The position numbers and the translations under genes were made by a program. The notes beneath the pieces are model-generated. The model was not told the origin of the DNA and made no database searches. It worked only from the letters and a program-made list of their open reading frames with translations. Shown one piece after another: positions 6,524-44,752 of a stretch of 64,000 nucleotides of DNA; within the stretch, counting starts at the first letter, position 1, and each line of letters starts with the position of its first letter. Source of the DNA: Myxococcales bacterium (lineage in GTDB: Bacteria; Myxococcota_A; Polyangia; Haliangiales; Haliangiaceae); assembly GCA_016794525.1 (NCBI GenBank), contig JAEUJY010000105.1, forward strand, positions 1-64,000, written 5' to 3'.

Positions 6524-13654
<7,131 letters not shown>

Positions 13655-37910: not shown

Positions 37911-38348
37911 ATGAGCATCACGGTCCACGCCTGGCTGCACATCGGCCACATCACCGGCTTCGTCGCATGGGTCGCGGGCATGCTGGCCACCCTGTACCTC
38001 CTGCGGGTCCACGCGATGGTCGAGGGCCCCGCCCGCGACGTGTGCGCTCGCCAGGAGGGCCGCACCGCGATGATCATGGATCTCGGCGCGACGCTGGCGC
38101 TGGTGTGCGGCTTCTGGATGGCGTTCGGCACCACGCCCAGCGCGTTCAAGACCGGCGGCTGGCTGCACGTCAAGCTGACGATCGTCGCGCTGACCTTGTT
38201 CGCGATCCACGGCTTCACCCGCGCCCAGGTCAAGCGGTTCCGCAACGGCAACGTCAAGGAGCTGCCCCGGGCCCTGCCGTACGTCGTCATGCTGGCGGCC
38301 GCCGCGGTGATCATCCTCGGCGCCCACCCGACGCTGCTGCGGAAGTAG
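37911..38348 (+). CDS. hemJ: HemJ/CopD-like membrane protein
   Basis: The 145-residue protein has four hydrophobic segments with conserved His residues ([40 protein letters not shown]). This pattern fits the HemJ/UPF0093 family in the CopD superfamily. HemJ oxidises protoporphyrinogen IX during heme synthesis. The assignment rests on these motifs and the length; a plain CopD-like protein remains possible. ATG 37911 follows TATAAGGGG. Confidence 0.6.
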
Positions 38349-38359
38349 ACTGGCGGTCG

Positions 38360-39556
<1,197 letters not shown>

Positions 39557-39576: not shown

Positions 39577-39693
39577 CTGGAACCGAGCGCTGGCGGCGAG
39601 TTGGGCGCGATCGGCGGATCGCGGTTCCCATTTCTGCGCGCTCGCGTGTCAATGGGACGAAGCCCCCGCCGCTCCTCACCCCCCAGGCACCCC

Positions 39694-41316
39694 ATGCGCC
39701 CCCTCCTGTGCACCCTGTTCGCGCTCACCGCCGCCGCGGCCTCCGCCGGCGTCGCCCGCGCCGACGACGTCGTCAGCTACGCGCTGGTCGTCGGCTCCAA
39801 CCGCCCCGGTCCCGGGCAGGCGCCGCTGGCCTTCGCCGAGGACGACGCCCGCGAGGTCGCCGACGTGCTGCGCGATCTCGGCGGCTACGCGCCGAGCCGT
39901 GTCCAGGTCGTGCTCAACCCGTCGGCGCGGGCGCTGGGCGCCGCGATCGCGACGCTCGATCGCGCGGTCGCCGCCGACGCCGCGGCCGGCCGCACCGCGC
40001 GGGTGTTCTTCTACTACTCCGGGCACGCCAAGGCGTCGGGGCTGTCGCTTGGCCCCGACGAGTTCGCGCTCGACACGCTGCGCGCGCGGCTGTTCGCGAC
40101 CCGCGCGGCGCTGACCGTCGTGGTGCTCGACGCCTGCCAGAGCGGCGCGTTCTCGCGGATCAAGGGCGCCGAGCCGGCCGCCGACTTCTCGTACAACTCG
40201 CGGGCGCGCCTCGACGCCAGCGGCGTCGCGGTGCTGGCGTCGTCGACCGGCAGCGAGCTGTCGCAGGAGTCCGACTTCCTGCGCTCGTCGTACTTCACCC
40301 ACAACTTCCTGATCGGCCTGCGCGGCGCCGCCGACGACAACCACGACGGCCAGGTCTCGCTCGACGAGGCCTACCGCTACACGTACCACCAGACGCTGGT
40401 CGCCACCGCCGCCACCGCGGTCGGCAGCCAGCACGTCTCGGTCGAGGTCGACCTCAAGGGTGCCGGCGAGATCCCGCTGGCGTTCCCCGAGAAGGCGACC
40501 GCGACGTTGACGCTGCCGGCCGACGCCGAGGGCCAGGTGCTGGTGGTCAAGGCGCCGGCGCGCGCGGTGGTGGCCGAGCTGCAGAAGAGCAAGGGCGCCG
40601 CGGTGCAGGTCGCGGTGGCGCCGGGCCGCTACCAGGTGCTGCTGCGCACCGCCGCGCGGGTGGTGCGCTGCGACGCGACCGCCGGTCCGGGCGCGGCGCC
40701 GATCGACCTCGGCCGGTGCGCGGTCGACGCGCCGATCGCCAGCGCGACCAAGGGCGGCGGCGCCGCCGGCGGCCCGGCGTGGCTGATCAGCGCGACGCTC
40801 GGCCTCGGCGGCGGTCGCGCCGACGCGTACACCGACCGGCTCGAGGAGTTCGGCTACCACAAGCAGCTGGGCGTCGGCACCCGGCTCGGCGTCGACGTGC
40901 TGCGCCGGGTCCACCCGAACGTGCTGGTCGGCGGGCAGGCGGTGCTGTTCGGCGGCGACGAGTGGCGCCGCGACACCGACCTCGAGCCGCTGACGATCCG
41001 GTGGAACACCGGCGTCGTCGGCGCGGTCGGCCGCGTCGAGCACCGCGTCGGTCCGGTCGCCGGGTTCGCGCAGCTGGGCGCCGGCCTGGCGGTCACCGGC
41101 ACCACCTTCGTCGATCAGGAGTCGGTCGCCACCGACGAGACCCACGTCGGTCCCGCCGCCGCCGGCGCGCTCGGCGTCGACTGGATCATCGGCGCCGGCG
41201 TCGGCGTCACCGGCCGCTTCGACGCCAGCTACGCGCCGTCGCTGCCCAACCTCCTCGGCGATCGCCACGACACCGGCCAGCTCGGCCTGTCGATCGGCGT
41301 GGTCGTCGTCCGCTAG
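39694..41316 (+). CDS. Secreted caspase-like peptidase with predicted outer-membrane barrel
   Basis: The 540-residue protein has a Sec signal (RPLLCTLFALTAAAASAGVARA). The next 250 residues form a C14 caspase-like domain with the catalytic pair His111 (FYYSGHA) and Cys148 (LDACQSG). A canonical 12-residue EF-hand loop (DDNHDGQVSLDE, 214-225) follows the catalytic Cys region, so calcium may control it. A beta-rich linker comes next. The C-terminal half (about 345-540) ends in a pattern of alternating residues (VGTRLGVDVLRRV, GVTGRFDASYAP, LGLSIGVVVV) typical of a small outer-membrane barrel. The enzyme would act in the periplasm or at the surface. The ATG at 39694 is the only start giving a signal peptide. 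Confidence 0.85.
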   Translation: MRPLLCTLFALTAAAASAGVARADDVVSYALVVGSNRPGPGQAPLAFAEDDAREVADVLRDLGGYAPSRVQVVLNPSARALGAAIATLDRAVAADAAAGRTARVFFYYSGHAKASGLSLGPDEFALDTLRARLFATRAALTVVVLDACQSGAFSRIKGAEPAADFSYNSRARLDASGVAVLASSTGSELSQESDFLRSSYFTHNFLIGLRGAADDNHDGQVSLDEAYRYTYHQTLVATAATAVGSQHVSVEVDLKGAGEIPLAFPEKATATLTLPADAEGQVLVVKAPARAVVAELQKSKGAAVQVAVAPGRYQVLLRTAARVVRCDATAGPGAAPIDLGRCAVDAPIASATKGGGAAGGPAWLISATLGLGGGRADAYTDRLEEFGYHKQLGVGTRLGVDVLRRVHPNVLVGGQAVLFGGDEWRRDTDLEPLTIRWNTGVVGAVGRVEHRVGPVAGFAQLGAGLAVTGTTFVDQESVATDETHVGPAAAGALGVDWIIGAGVGVTGRFDASYAPSLPNLLGDRHDTGQLGLSIGVVVVR

Positions 41317-41317
41317 C

Positions 41318-41337
41318 TAGCCGAGCGTCAGCGAGGC
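41318..41337 (+). repeat. 20-bp stop-codon repeat, copy B
   Basis: TAGCCGAGCGTCAGCGAGGC lies one base after the caspase stop codon (CGC TAG C TAG). It is identical to copy A at 3936-3955 on the other strand. Confidence 0.7.
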
Positions 41338-41392
41338 CATCTCTGGATCTCCGCCGCTTCCGCACCACGCCCCGCCTCCCAGGACCTCCCCC

Positions 41393-42490
41393 ATGCGCCA
41401 CCTCCCCACGCTCCTCCTCCTCGCCGGCGTCGCCGTCACCAGCGGCGGCGCCACCGACTGCGGCCAGGTCATCGACGACCGCGGCTTCGACCTGTGGTGC
41501 GGCGATCGGCTGTGCCGCTGGACCCTCGAGAAGGGCCAGATCGCGCCGGTGCCGACCTGGCACGCGGGCGACCACGGCGTCGCGATGCTCGGCGCCGACG
41601 TCGCGATCTCGCAGCTGACCGAGGTGGCGTCGACGGACGGCACCTGCGTCGGCTTCGACCTGGTGGCCGACGTCGCCGCCGACGCCGAGGTCCACCTGCT
41701 GGTCGACGTCTACGGCGACGGCACGATCGAGCGCGACGAGCGCATCCCGACCAGCGCGTGGCGGCCGGTGTCGTTCCGGCTGCGCATGCCCGCGTTCTAC
41801 CAGGGCGTGCGGTTCCGGCTGACCAAGGTCGGCGGCCACGCGGTGCTGGCCAACATCGGCGCGGCGATCGCCGACGACGCCGAGTGCGTCGGGCCGGCGC
41901 TGGCGCCCGGGCCGCGCCCCGACGGCGTGATCTGCGGCGAGGACGCCGACTGCGCGAGCGGCGACTGCGTGCCCGGGCCGCTGGGCTCGGCGTGCGGCGA
42001 GTGCACCACCGACGCTGACTGCACCGGCGGCGACGTCTGCGGGATCGTCTCGTACGCCGAAGCGTCGCGCGGGTTGTGGTCGGCGTGCGTCGCGCCGGCG
42101 TCGACCGCGACCGGCCTGGCCTGCGTGCGCGACGCGCAGTGCGCGACCGGCATCTGCGCCGGCAGCTACTGCAGCGCGTGCCGCGACGACAGCACCTGCG
42201 GCGGCGGCAGCTGCGCGCCGATCCACTACGTCGTCGAGCACGACGATCGCGACCCCACCGACATCACCGGCGCGCTGCACTGCACCGGCGGGCCATCGGT
42301 GGCCAGCGGCGGCGCCTGCCTGGCCGACGCCGACTGCGCGTCGGGCGCGTGCGTCGGCGACGTGCTGGCGATGTGCACGACGTCGTTCTTCCCGCGGGCC
42401 TGCACCACCGACATGGAATGCCCGGGCTACGCCTTTGGCAGCGAGCCGGCGTGTGTCAACGTCGGAACCCGCGGTGGCACCTGCCAGTGA
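41393..42490 (+). CDS. Secreted Cys-rich protein
   Basis: The 365-residue protein has a signal peptide (RHLPTLLLLAGVAVTSGGA). Residues 20-165 form a beta-rich domain. Residues 175-365 hold many short Cys motifs of the type CxxDADCASGxCV, such as GEDADCASGDCVPG, TTDADCTGGDVCG, VRDAQCATGICAG and LADADCASGACVG, a repeat common in myxobacterial surface proteins. Several disulfides are likely. The last 17 bases overlap the next gene, a sigma factor in another frame. Function unknown. Confidence 0.75.
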   Translation: MRHLPTLLLLAGVAVTSGGATDCGQVIDDRGFDLWCGDRLCRWTLEKGQIAPVPTWHAGDHGVAMLGADVAISQLTEVASTDGTCVGFDLVADVAADAEVHLLVDVYGDGTIERDERIPTSAWRPVSFRLRMPAFYQGVRFRLTKVGGHAVLANIGAAIADDAECVGPALAPGPRPDGVICGEDADCASGDCVPGPLGSACGECTTDADCTGGDVCGIVSYAEASRGLWSACVAPASTATGLACVRDAQCATGICAGSYCSACRDDSTCGGGSCAPIHYVVEHDDRDPTDITGALHCTGGPSVASGGACLADADCASGACVGDVLAMCTTSFFPRACTTDMECPGYAFGSEPACVNVGTRGGTCQ

Positions 42491-42956
42491 ACACGAGGCC
42501 GCGTACCAGCGCTTCGGGCCCGCGCTCGTGCGCAAGGCCGAGCGCATCCTGCGCAACCGCGAGGACGCGGTCGATGTCGTCCAGGCGCTGTTCACCGAGC
42601 TGATCGCGCGCGGAGCTGCACCCGTGGATCTCCCCTACCTCTACCGAGCCGTCTCCAACCGGGCGCTCAACGTCGTGCGCGACGCGCGCGGCCGGGCCCG
42701 GCTGCTCGAGCGGCAGCAGGCGACGCTGGCCCCGGCGCCGCGCGCGTCGGGCGCGCTGGTGGTCGGGCTCGACCTGCTGGCGCGGCTGTGCGATCGGCTC
42801 GACGCCGACCACCGCGACGTGCTGGTGGCGCGCTACGTCGACGAGCTGACCCAGGACGAGATCGCGGCGCTGTACGGCGTGTCGCGCAAGACCGTCGGCA
42901 AGCGGTTGGCCCGGGTCGACGCCGCGGCGGCGGCGCTGGCCGCGGAGGGCGCGTGA
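42474..42956 (+). CDS. ECF sigma factor overlapping the Cys-rich gene
   Basis: The 160-residue protein has region 2 (YQRFGPALVRKAERILRNREDAVDVVQALFTEL, PYLYRAVSNRALNVVRDA) and region 4 (LDADHRDVLVARYVDELTQDEIAALYGVSRKTVGKRLARVD). The start is uncertain: GTG 42474 has GGAA seven bases upstream; GTG 42453 and TTG 42435 are also in frame. All overlap the end of the Cys-rich gene, so the two are coupled. Its stop overlaps the anti-sigma gene start as GTGA, the usual sigma/anti-sigma pairing. Confidence 0.85.
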   Translation: MAPASEHEAAYQRFGPALVRKAERILRNREDAVDVVQALFTELIARGAAPVDLPYLYRAVSNRALNVVRDARGRARLLERQQATLAPAPRASGALVVGLDLLARLCDRLDADHRDVLVARYVDELTQDEIAALYGVSRKTVGKRLARVDAAAAALAAEGA

Positions 42957-43636
42957 GCGGCGCCGCCTGCATCGGCGAGCCGGTGTCGTGGCTGCGGCTC
43001 GAGCGGCTGGCGCTGGCCGAGCTCGACGCGGCCACCGCCGCGACGGTGCGCGCGCACCTCGACGCGTGCGCGGCGTGCGCGGGCGCGTTCGCGCGGATCG
43101 CCGAAGACGCGCGGCCGCTGCCGAGGCTGCCGGCGGTGACGGTGGACGCGACCGCGCCGCCGTGGTGGGCGCGCTGGCGCGTCGCCATCGGTGGGATCGC
43201 GCTGGCGGCCGGCGCGGCCGTGGCGCTGGTGGCGCTGCGGCCCGCGACGGTGGCGCCACCGCCGCCGGGCGGCGTGCGGGTCAAGGGCGCGGGCGTCGTG
43301 GTGGTGCGGCTGGTGCGCGAGCGCGCCGGCGTGATCGCGTTCGACCCCGACGACGTGCGCGAGGACGATCGCTGGAAGGTCGAGCTGACGTGCGCGCCTG
43401 GCGGCGCCGCGTGGGTCGACGTCGCGGTGGTGCAGGGGCGCGAGGTGGCGTTCCCGCTGGCGCCGCAGGAGGTCGCGTGTGGCAACGCGGTGGCGGTGCC
43501 GGGCGCGTTCCGGATCACCGACGGCGCGGCGGAGGTGTGCGTGGCGCTCGGGCCGCGCGCCGCGGATCGGGAGAAGCTGCGCGGCGGGGCGCGAGGCGGA
43601 GTCGTGTGCCGGAGGCTGACGGCGAGCGGGACGTAG
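42953..43636 (+). CDS. Anti-sigma factor with zinc-finger-like start
   Basis: The 227-residue protein starts with GTG overlapping the sigma stop. Its first 45 residues hold the zf-HC2 pattern (HLDACAACAGAF), the fold that binds and holds an ECF sigma factor. One membrane helix follows (VAIGGIALAAGAAVALVALR, about 78-97), then a periplasmic domain of about 120 residues with a Cys pair (LTCAPGG, EVACGNA). The layout fits an anti-sigma factor that senses an envelope signal. The domain is not a recognised sensor. Confidence 0.8.
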   Translation: MSGAACIGEPVSWLRLERLALAELDAATAATVRAHLDACAACAGAFARIAEDARPLPRLPAVTVDATAPPWWARWRVAIGGIALAAGAAVALVALRPATVAPPPPGGVRVKGAGVVVVRLVRERAGVIAFDPDDVREDDRWKVELTCAPGGAAWVDVAVVQGREVAFPLAPQEVACGNAVAVPGAFRITDGAAEVCVALGPRAADREKLRGGARGGVVCRRLTASGT

Positions 43637-44032
43637 GAACGCGGCTGAGACCGCGACCGTGAGACCGCGACCGTGACCGCGACGGCGACCGCGACGGCGA
43701 CCGTGGCCGCGACCGCGACCGTGACCGTGACCGTGACGGCGACCGCGACCGTGGCCGTGGCCGTGACCGTGGCCGCGACCGTGACCGTGGCCGCGACCGC
43801 GGCCGTGACCGTGGCCGAAGTCGGGGACGGGGACGGGGACGGAGACGGGGACGGGGACGGGCACGGGCACGGGCACGGGCACGGGCACGGGCACGGGCAC
43901 GGGCACGGGGACGGGCACGGGGATGGGCACGGGATCCGGACTCGGATGTCGCGATGGCGGGCGGGCGGCGGCGGTGGTGGCGGTGGAAGTCGATGAGTTG
44001 CGGGCGGCGCGCGGGTTGCAGTGAGGGGCACG
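43637..44032. other. Intergenic region filled by a repeat array
   Basis: No gene is supported between the anti-sigma stop and the next start. Most of it is the hexanucleotide array described separately. After the array, 43934-44032 holds a GC-rich stretch with many GGTGG steps and then the ribosome binding site of the next gene. Confidence 0.7.
43647..43933. repeat. Hexanucleotide repeat array
   Basis: About 287 bp of 6-bp units in two blocks. The first block is GACCGY-like (GACCGC, GACCGT, GACGGC, GGCCGT) to about 43815. The second is GGGGAC, then a run of GGGCAC units, to 43933. One frame through it reads as Thr-Ala/Thr-Val, then Asp-Gly and His-Gly, but it is simple-sequence DNA and not taken as a gene. 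It is likely unstable in length and could affect expression of the gene downstream. Confidence 0.9.
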
Positions 44033-44752
44033 GTGCGCGTCGTCGTCCGCGTTGTCGTCATGCTCGTCGCGCTCGTGGTCGCGTCCACCGCGCGGGCGGA
44101 GCCGCTGGGCACGCACGTGGCGCCGTGGGCGCCGACGGGCGAGGTGGTGGAGGCGGGGAAGGTGCGCTTCGAGTACACGGTGGTCGCGCACGTCGGTGCG
44201 GCGGTCGGCGTGGCGCCGGGGCTCGAGCTGCGGGTCGGCGCGGGCGCGCTGATCCCGCCGGTGCAGCTGTACGAGGCTGACGCGGCGCTGCGAGGGCAGC
44301 TGGTGCGGGCGGGGGCGCTGCGGGTCACGGTGGGCGCGCAGGCGATGGCGGCGTCGCTCGACGGGGAGGGCGGGCGGCGGTGGGGCGGCGAGCTCGGCGT
44401 CGGGCTGTACGGGACGCGCGGGCACGTCGCGTGGTCGCGGCGCCGCTTCCTCGGCGGCGCCGAGGCGATCGACGTCGACCTGGTGACCGCGTCGATCGAT
44501 CTCGGCGCGGTGCGGGCGGTGGCTGCGGCGGGGCGCATCCCGGGACCGCCGCCGCCGTGCGCGCGCGACGTGCGCGCCCGCGGCCAGGTCGGCTGCCCCG
44601 ACACCCCCGCGCTGGCCCACGCGTTCGCGGCCGGCGTGCAGTTCCACGGCGGGCGCGTCAGCGGCTCGATCGGGCTCGCCGCGGCGCTCTACTCCGACTA
44701 CCCGCCGGTGCCGCTGCCGTACCTGATCGTGTCGATCCCGTGGTCGCCGTGA
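44033..44752 (+). CDS. Secreted envelope protein, probably a small beta-barrel
   Basis: The 239-residue protein begins at GTG 44033, behind GAGGGG, with a signal peptide (MRVVVRVVVMLVALVVASTARA). The mature part alternates hydrophobic and polar residues in strand-like blocks (GKVRFEYTVVAHVGAAVGVAPGLELRVGAGAL is one long region) and ends in IVSIPWSP, fitting an outer-membrane barrel. A Cys pair (PPPCARDVRA, VGCPDTP) sits in one loop. No family is recognised. It lies directly after the hexanucleotide array. The stops of this gene and its convergent neighbour share the 6-bp palindrome TGATCA. Confidence 0.65.
   Translation: MRVVVRVVVMLVALVVASTARAEPLGTHVAPWAPTGEVVEAGKVRFEYTVVAHVGAAVGVAPGLELRVGAGALIPPVQLYEADAALRGQLVRAGALRVTVGAQAMAASLDGEGGRRWGGELGVGLYGTRGHVAWSRRRFLGGAEAIDVDLVTASIDLGAVRAVAAAGRIPGPPPPCARDVRARGQVGCPDTPALAHAFAAGVQFHGGRVSGSIGLAAALYSDYPPVPLPYLIVSIPWSP

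Follow-up and report, generated by a model that had tools for sequence, protein, structure and literature searches.

A conserved myxobacterial operon encoding a caspase with a predicted outer-membrane barrel, a Cys-rich protein, an extracytoplasmic function sigma factor and a putative anti-sigma factor

We analysed a stretch of 64,000 nucleotides from a Myxococcales bacterium (GenBank assembly GCA_016794525.1, contig JAEUJY010000105.1, positions 1 to 64,000 of the forward strand; hereafter the window), which belongs to a 9.8-Mb genome and carries five same-strand open reading frames (ORFs) between positions 39694 and 44752. An earlier note had read these five as a possible envelope-sensing unit. 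The first four, at 39694–43636, almost certainly form a conserved operon, which encodes in order an exported caspase with a predicted outer-membrane beta-barrel at its C-terminus, an exported Cys-rich protein, an extracytoplasmic function (ECF) sigma factor and a membrane anti-sigma factor; an ECF-type promoter-like site lies upstream, and the fifth gene is excluded for reasons given below. All features are on the forward strand, and gene boundaries are those of a codon-usage gene call. In some lower-GC loci among the relatives (L079, L082, L087, L089, L102, L118, L126 and L136) the gene caller missed or cut genes, and tblastn or six-frame profiles were used instead.

The first gene (39694..41316) encodes a protein of 540 residues, and its assignment as an exported caspase agrees with a Pfam Peptidase_C14 match of 36 bits against a cut-off of 21.4 (E 7.5e-9), a match found in all 20 family members; a sequence search of the PDB gave no useful match. 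The AlphaFold2 model, built from 35 sequences, has a mean predicted local distance difference test score (pLDDT) of 84.9 and a predicted template modelling score (pTM) of 0.57. It comprises a caspase domain (residues 26-265; 39769..40488), a small beta domain (270-345), a low-confidence linker (351-359) and an eight-stranded, OmpA-like barrel (363-539; 40780..41310), the last of which the earlier note had overlooked. The barrel block is modelled with pLDDT above 90, while residues 155-173 and 351-359 fall below 50. Metacaspase 4 is the top VIA-align match of the caspase (Z 21.6, 208 residues aligned, root-mean-square deviation 2.7), OmpA (9fzd) is the first Foldseek match of the barrel (E 8.6e-9), with NspA, OmpW and Ail within the ten best, and the Pfam family OMP_b-brl is matched in 4 of 20 members. 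A C-terminal F, W, Y or L, consistent with a terminal barrel, occurs in 12 of 13 caspases from operons of another type, described below, compared with 47 of 472 other proteins, and in 31 of 53 caspases of the present type, redundant copies counted. Judging from the model, the caspase is very likely tied to the outer membrane through this C-terminal barrel, and the protease should therefore hang in the periplasm. No TonB-receptor, plug or signalling domain was matched in Pfam at E up to 1, which sets the protein apart from FecA-type receptors, and the same search gave no TPR or CHAT domain.

To assess conservation within the protease, 52 non-redundant caspases were compared, 36 from this unit and 16 from the other operon type. 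His111 (40024-40026) and Cys148 (40135-40137) are present in all 52 and constitute the catalytic dyad. An EF-hand-like loop, D214-x-N-x-D218-G-x-V-S-x-x-E225 (40333..40368), retains D214 and E225 in 52/52 and D218 in 51/52, and four of 20 members match EF-hand_5, the best at E 0.01. Mean pairwise identity is 62% across the caspase domain and 28% across the barrel.

The second gene (41393..42490) encodes an exported Cys-rich protein, as the earlier note had described; it contains 29 Cys, and its repeats give a Myxo_Cys_RPT score of 24.4 bits, just below the cut-off of 25. The model of this protein (pLDDT 87.4) places a beta-sandwich at approximately residues 24-165, ahead of the Cys-rich repeats. 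This N-terminal domain resembles carbohydrate-binding modules (CBMs), with matches to 8xmz (Z 13.6) and 2zex (Z 13.1). Sugar binding by the modelled domain is only a guess, because equally good structure matches include modules that do not bind sugar, such as that of meprin.

The third and fourth genes conform to a sigma factor and its putative inhibitor, in agreement with the earlier assignments. The sigma factor (42474..42956) matches TIGR02937 with 60.9 bits against a cut-off of 42.9; Sigma70_r4 is above its cut-off and Sigma70_r2 just below (23.2 versus 24), so that a short protein with regions 2 and 4, as expected of the ECF group, is encoded. The note's overlap between this gene and the Cys-rich gene does exist, and its extent is here corrected to 17 bp, with GTG 42474 as the likeliest start; an identical overlap is called in 9 of the 35 named loci introduced below, two more overlap otherwise, and the remainder are gapped or unreadable, some called ortholog starts being probably too late. 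A TTG start at 42435 is not preferred because GTG 42474 reproduces the 17-bp overlap of the orthologs, and position 42456 reads TCA, which is no start codon. The sigma and anti-sigma genes overlap by 4 bp. The anti-sigma factor (42953..43636) has an HxxxCxxC zinc finger at its N-terminus, one hydrophobic stretch and a periplasmic domain with four conserved Cys. H35, C39 and C42 of the finger are invariant in 17/17 orthologs; the Pfam family zf-HC2 scores 20.2 bits in the window protein, just under the cut-off of 22.2, and appears at E up to 1 in 9 of the 17. From these sequence features, the protein is a putative inhibitor of the adjoining sigma factor.

The gene order extends well beyond the strain, a point on which the earlier note had staked its proposal. 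A Cys-rich-profile scan of named genomes yielded 35 named loci, many of them on the same contigs as a second set of 56 genomes, which comprises that of the window together with 55 relatives. By six-frame profiles, the order caspase-barrel, Cys-rich, sigma occurs in 30 of the 35, and the anti-sigma gene follows in 29 of these 30, the contig of the thirtieth stopping within the sigma gene. The five exceptions are L122, L137 (where the contig ends), L126, L133 and L134. Locus L122 (1450-6731) holds a duplicated arrangement of barrel, short Cys-rich, sigma, anti-sigma, caspase-barrel and Cys-rich genes. Of the 56 genomes, 40 have a match to the caspase protein and 28 have one to the anti-sigma protein, with many of the caspase matches being distant paralogs. 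When restricted to E < 1e-90, 25 caspases remain (own included), and for 23 of them the anti-sigma match shares the contig at a distance of 1.1 to 2.3 kb; in the other two (G013 and G026) that match lies on another contig, near a contig end. The order is present in four families of the class, namely f1 and, through L081, L083 and L084, f9, f7 and f13; at these three loci the flanking genes change and the four genes are retained. Flanks are often conserved as well inside the window's own family, where a UPF0093 gene and a DNA-polymerase-IV-like gene (by eye), at 37911-39556 in the window, are common upstream neighbours. More broadly, the Cys-rich profile finds some match in 65 of 317 genomes of the class, many only over the Cys repeats; matches spanning the N-domain occur in families f1, f7, f9, f12, f13, f14, f16 and f27, in which the rest of the unit was checked only at the named loci.

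The Cys-rich gene lies directly behind a barrel in 35/35 loci, and the barrel is a separate protein without caspase in L126, L133, L134 and the first pair of L122. At L126, L133 and L134, this pair occurs with no caspase or sigma match, a weak absence for L134, whose contig has only 3,972 bases. As the Cys-rich gene always follows a barrel, sometimes one free of caspase, we take the barrel and Cys-rich protein for the core of the unit and the caspase for an added component. In the other operon type, at L085-L100 and L102, the caspase, ECF sigma and anti-sigma genes occur in other orders, apparently with barrel-like ends too. A profile for the anti-sigma factors of this other type gave 60 matches covering finger to periplasmic domain in the 56 genomes, of which 51 have a caspase match no more than 5 kb away, an association biased upward because the profile was derived from caspase-linked genes. 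The remaining nine comprise two near a contig end (G013 and G026) and seven without a caspase match nearby.

Upstream of the operon, at 39623..39650, lies the ECF-type promoter-like site GGTTCCCA-N13-GCGTGTC, and similar sites precede most of the orthologous caspase genes. The consensus TTCCC-N14-GCG[TA]GT (or close), of which the window copy is TTCCC-N14-GCGTGTC, was detected ahead of 26 of 34 non-redundant caspase genes, in 22 cases by the strict pattern; among 200 other genes of the same loci there were no strict matches and one loose match. Near matches seen by eye at L083 and L121 were not counted. The conservation of the unit exceeds chance, as judged by gene order and promoter counts. 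Because a conserved ECF-type site stands before the operon, autoregulation by its own sigma factor is quite likely. The 9.8-Mb genome holds two exact copies of the pattern, one at 39623 and the other on contig 72; allowing two mismatches or fewer raises the number to 17, versus 4 for the reversed pattern. Across the 56 genomes, the exact core was found 20 times, in 16 genomes, compared with 5 control sites, and 15 of the 20 precede a caspase gene. For four of the other five, the start of an exported-looking protein (by eye) is no more than about 130 bases away, and the site at L166 has no gene start just downstream. The contig-72 site precedes a lipoprotein-like gene; the next ORF, which overlaps it, is exported and has no match in Pfam. 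A similar site is kept at the ortholog of the lipoprotein-like gene in G011, where the ortholog is split over two contigs and the unit is present; no site was seen at the ortholog in G051, for which no Cys-rich match is listed. With one of two compared ortholog genomes carrying the site, its conservation weakly suggests a wider regulon. A promoter shared with the other operon type was considered and set aside, there being no strict match in 17 loci of that type.

Basic residues followed by Gly recur at three places in the encoded proteins. Lys157-Gly158 (40162..40167) lies in the loop of low model confidence that follows the catalytic Cys and is present in all 52 caspases of both types. In the linker between protease part and barrel, Lys353-Gly354 of the window protein (40750..40755) corresponds to a basic residue and Gly in 51/52; the exception, L118, has Lys-Ala, while the motif is shifted by one in L074 and reads Lys-Arg-Gly in L087 and L089. 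Lys111-Gly112 (43283..43288) occupies the membrane-proximal stalk of the anti-sigma factor in 17/17 orthologs. Part of PMC6426788 describes orthocaspases as cleaving after basic residues. We infer from the conserved sequences that these Lys/Arg-Gly pairs are putative caspase cut sites, the first two candidates for self-cleavage and the third for a possible site-1 cut. Another candidate in the anti-sigma factor, Arg122-x-Arg124, was dropped, being lost in several distant members.

As a control for the stalk motif, we examined anti-sigma-like proteins outside the first type for a basic-Gly pair within 40 residues of the hydrophobic stretch. [KR]G was found in 39 of 42 proteins with a caspase within 5 kb and in 9 of 12 without, and KG specifically in 32 of 42 and 4 of 12. 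Besides the four clear sigma-linked, caspase-free proteins considered below (L223-L226), there is a fifth caspase-free case, L231; its sigma match reaches only 23 bits, and its Arg-Gly falls right where the hydrophobic stretch ends. The Lys-Gly stalk is therefore unsupported as a caspase-specific mark, and the motif does not show that a caspase cuts there.

Taken together, these features could describe a four-gene cell-surface-signalling operon of the outer membrane, in which cleavage of the anti-sigma factor by the tethered caspase sets the sigma factor free; we consider this reading about equally likely to be right or wrong. Gene order, the tethered caspase, the CBM-like partner and the promoter-like site provide computational support, and the cutting step, which the earlier note had already raised for a secreted protease, is what we infer. 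With moderate confidence, the barrel and the CBM-like protein would sense something outside, a glycan being the obvious guess. The signal, perhaps together with calcium on the EF-hand-like loop, would activate the caspase, which would undergo self-cleavage at two places, Lys157-Gly158 and the Lys353-Gly354 linker, and leave the barrel. The freed enzyme would then cut the anti-sigma stalk at Lys111-Gly112, whereupon intramembrane proteolysis would release the sigma factor for transcription of the operon and a few other envelope genes. Cutting of the anti-sigma factor by the caspase falls a little short of an even chance in our estimate, and self-release at the linker is more doubtful again.

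Several observations weigh against this scheme. An outer-membrane barrel and an inner-membrane anti-sigma factor lie on opposite sides of the periplasm, such that contact requires self-release or a long reach, and a pTM of 0.57 leaves the relative placing of the domains of the caspase protein uncertain. The Cys-rich protein could be periplasmic or secreted rather than on the surface. All four clear sigma-linked, caspase-free anti-sigma factors (L223-L226, the DNA around L226 ending about 1 kb downstream) carry [KR]G, which may be structural. No promoter-like site was detected before 8 of the 34 caspase genes, two of which start at a contig end, and at L087 and L089, both loci of the other caspase type, tblastn found no sigma or anti-sigma match in 10-12 kb. 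In addition, the profiles behind the order counts were built partly from the same loci or copies.

The foremost rival, which we regard as plausible if probably mistaken, makes the caspase an output. Here, the anti-sigma factor would sense stress through its four-Cys domain and be cut by ordinary site-1 and site-2 proteases, and the outer-membrane caspase and lectin made under the sigma factor would act on prey, competitors or damaged envelope proteins. The position of the promoter-like site before the caspase, with caspase and Cys-rich genes first in a regulated operon, is consistent with this, as are the four conserved Cys. Each partner also occurs without the other: sigma/anti-sigma pairs with a related periplasmic domain and no caspase exist (L223-L226), as do caspase genes without a detected sigma gene (L087 and L089). 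However, the proximity of 51 of 60 anti-sigma matches to a caspase, across several gene orders, exceeds what an arbitrary target gene would show, subject to the bias of the profile. Alternatively, the barrel and Cys-rich protein might hold or release the anti-sigma periplasmic domain directly, in the manner of a TonB-dependent transducer, with the caspase only tuning the receptor. The linkage of barrel and Cys-rich genes in 35/35 loci would suit direct contact, and part of PMC11637429 describes TonB-dependent transducers that interact with and protect an anti-sigma factor. Yet the barrel is modelled with eight strands, a TonB-receptor, plug or signalling-domain match is absent, and the caspase, with its fully conserved active site, is the best conserved part of the protein, all of which renders direct contact improbable. 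Shared synteny by descent, with no common function, is barely credible: neighbours on both sides are often conserved within the window's family, but other families change the flanks and keep the four genes, with overlaps or short gaps and one promoter-like site.

The role of bacterial caspase homologues has long been open, and they are usually discussed in terms of cell death. A broader proposal, that outer-membrane-tethered caspases of Myxococcota form a general class of site-1 proteases for ECF signalling, with a lectin/barrel receptor for an outside ligand, basic-Gly self-release of a calcium-binding caspase, its passage across the periplasm and a stalk cut, seems to us unlikely at present. 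If correct, it would represent cell-surface signalling by a released protease and would place caspases among signalling rather than death enzymes; the occurrence of the basic-Gly linker in operons of other gene order would make the mechanism a class-wide principle. The invariant dyad, the predicted outer-membrane tether and a probable promoter of the operon's own sigma factor in many genomes point to a concrete, testable substrate, the anti-sigma stalk, alongside two predicted self-cut sites and a promoter suited to a reporter. Even were the caspase only an output, knowledge of the promoter and of the small predicted regulon would help to reveal its purpose.

The exported ORF of 239 residues at approximately 44033-44752 does lie behind a repeat array, as the earlier note had stated, and its membership of the unit does not stand. 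Its product has no Pfam match, a match to the gene exists in only two of the 56 genomes, namely the window's own and one other in which it is weak (33%), and no promoter-like site of the operon type precedes it, so that the promoter search proposed for 39694 and 44033 succeeded at the former only. The intervening array, at 43649-43933 between the anti-sigma stop and this ORF, consists of two adjoining GC-rich hexanucleotide arrays (GACCGT-like, then CGGGCA), within which a low-complexity ORF (43673-43996) was also called. Elsewhere in the window, an ORF of 2376 residues at 6524-13654 has a signal-like start and tandem repeats of 288 and 402 bp.

Comparison with known systems places the unit beside several established arrangements. 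FecA/FecR/FecI signalling combines an outer-membrane TonB-dependent receptor bearing a signalling domain with an inner-membrane anti-sigma factor and an ECF sigma factor. The window unit resembles it in having a candidate outer-membrane receptor, an inner-membrane anti-sigma factor and an ECF sigma factor, and differs in that an eight-stranded OmpA-like barrel with a fused caspase takes the place of the TonB-dependent receptor and its signalling domain. DegS is an inner-membrane PDZ serine protease, whereas the window enzyme is a cysteine protease predicted on the outer membrane. The likeness to the DegS-RseA-RpoE envelope stress pathway, as treated in part of PMC10028731, lies in the proposed periplasmic site-1 cut of a membrane anti-sigma factor. 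Passages of the same paper describe Csx29 of the type III-E CRISPR system, a caspase-like protease that cuts Csx30, the inhibitor of the ECF factor CASP-sigma, with positive autoregulation suggested. That enzyme is a TPR-CHAT protease activated by target RNA (PMC10028731), in contrast to the exported, barrel-fused C14 protease of the window, which lacks a TPR or CHAT match. Caspase-bearing conflict systems with ECF sigma factor genes, described in a 2021 study (PMC8195603), likewise place both in one neighbourhood; these EACC2/caspase systems are counter-invader systems with TRADD-N, EACC2 and TPR proteins, and the passages concerned mention no anti-sigma factor or outer-membrane barrel. The ECF54 group, with CHAT-domain proteins, also has a caspase-type domain conserved beside the sigma factor, and differs in having no anti-sigma factor, proteolysis being proposed in its absence in part of PMC8999054.

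The closest precedent comes from Asplund-Samuelsson et al. 2012 (PMC3501461), part of which reports sigma-70 genes in four metacaspase operons of Myxococcus xanthus and the same structure in Anaeromyxobacter, Haliangium, Sorangium, Ralstonia and Fibrobacter. The window unit shares with these, as compared by description, a metacaspase homologue and a sigma-70 gene in one predicted operon of overlapping or close same-strand genes, in the same phylum; the operon section of that paper mentions no anti-sigma factor, fused barrel, Cys-rich or CBM-like partner, promoter or four-gene order. Among the literature matches listed, with supplements and most subscription journals outside the scope, none describes the four-gene unit or a barrel-tethered caspase, and a search combining peptidase C14, anti-sigma and ECF gave no match. 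Overall, caspase genes in myxobacterial sigma-factor operons were already known (PMC3501461), to which the present analysis adds the predicted barrel, the CBM-like partner, the promoter-like site and the basic-Gly sites.

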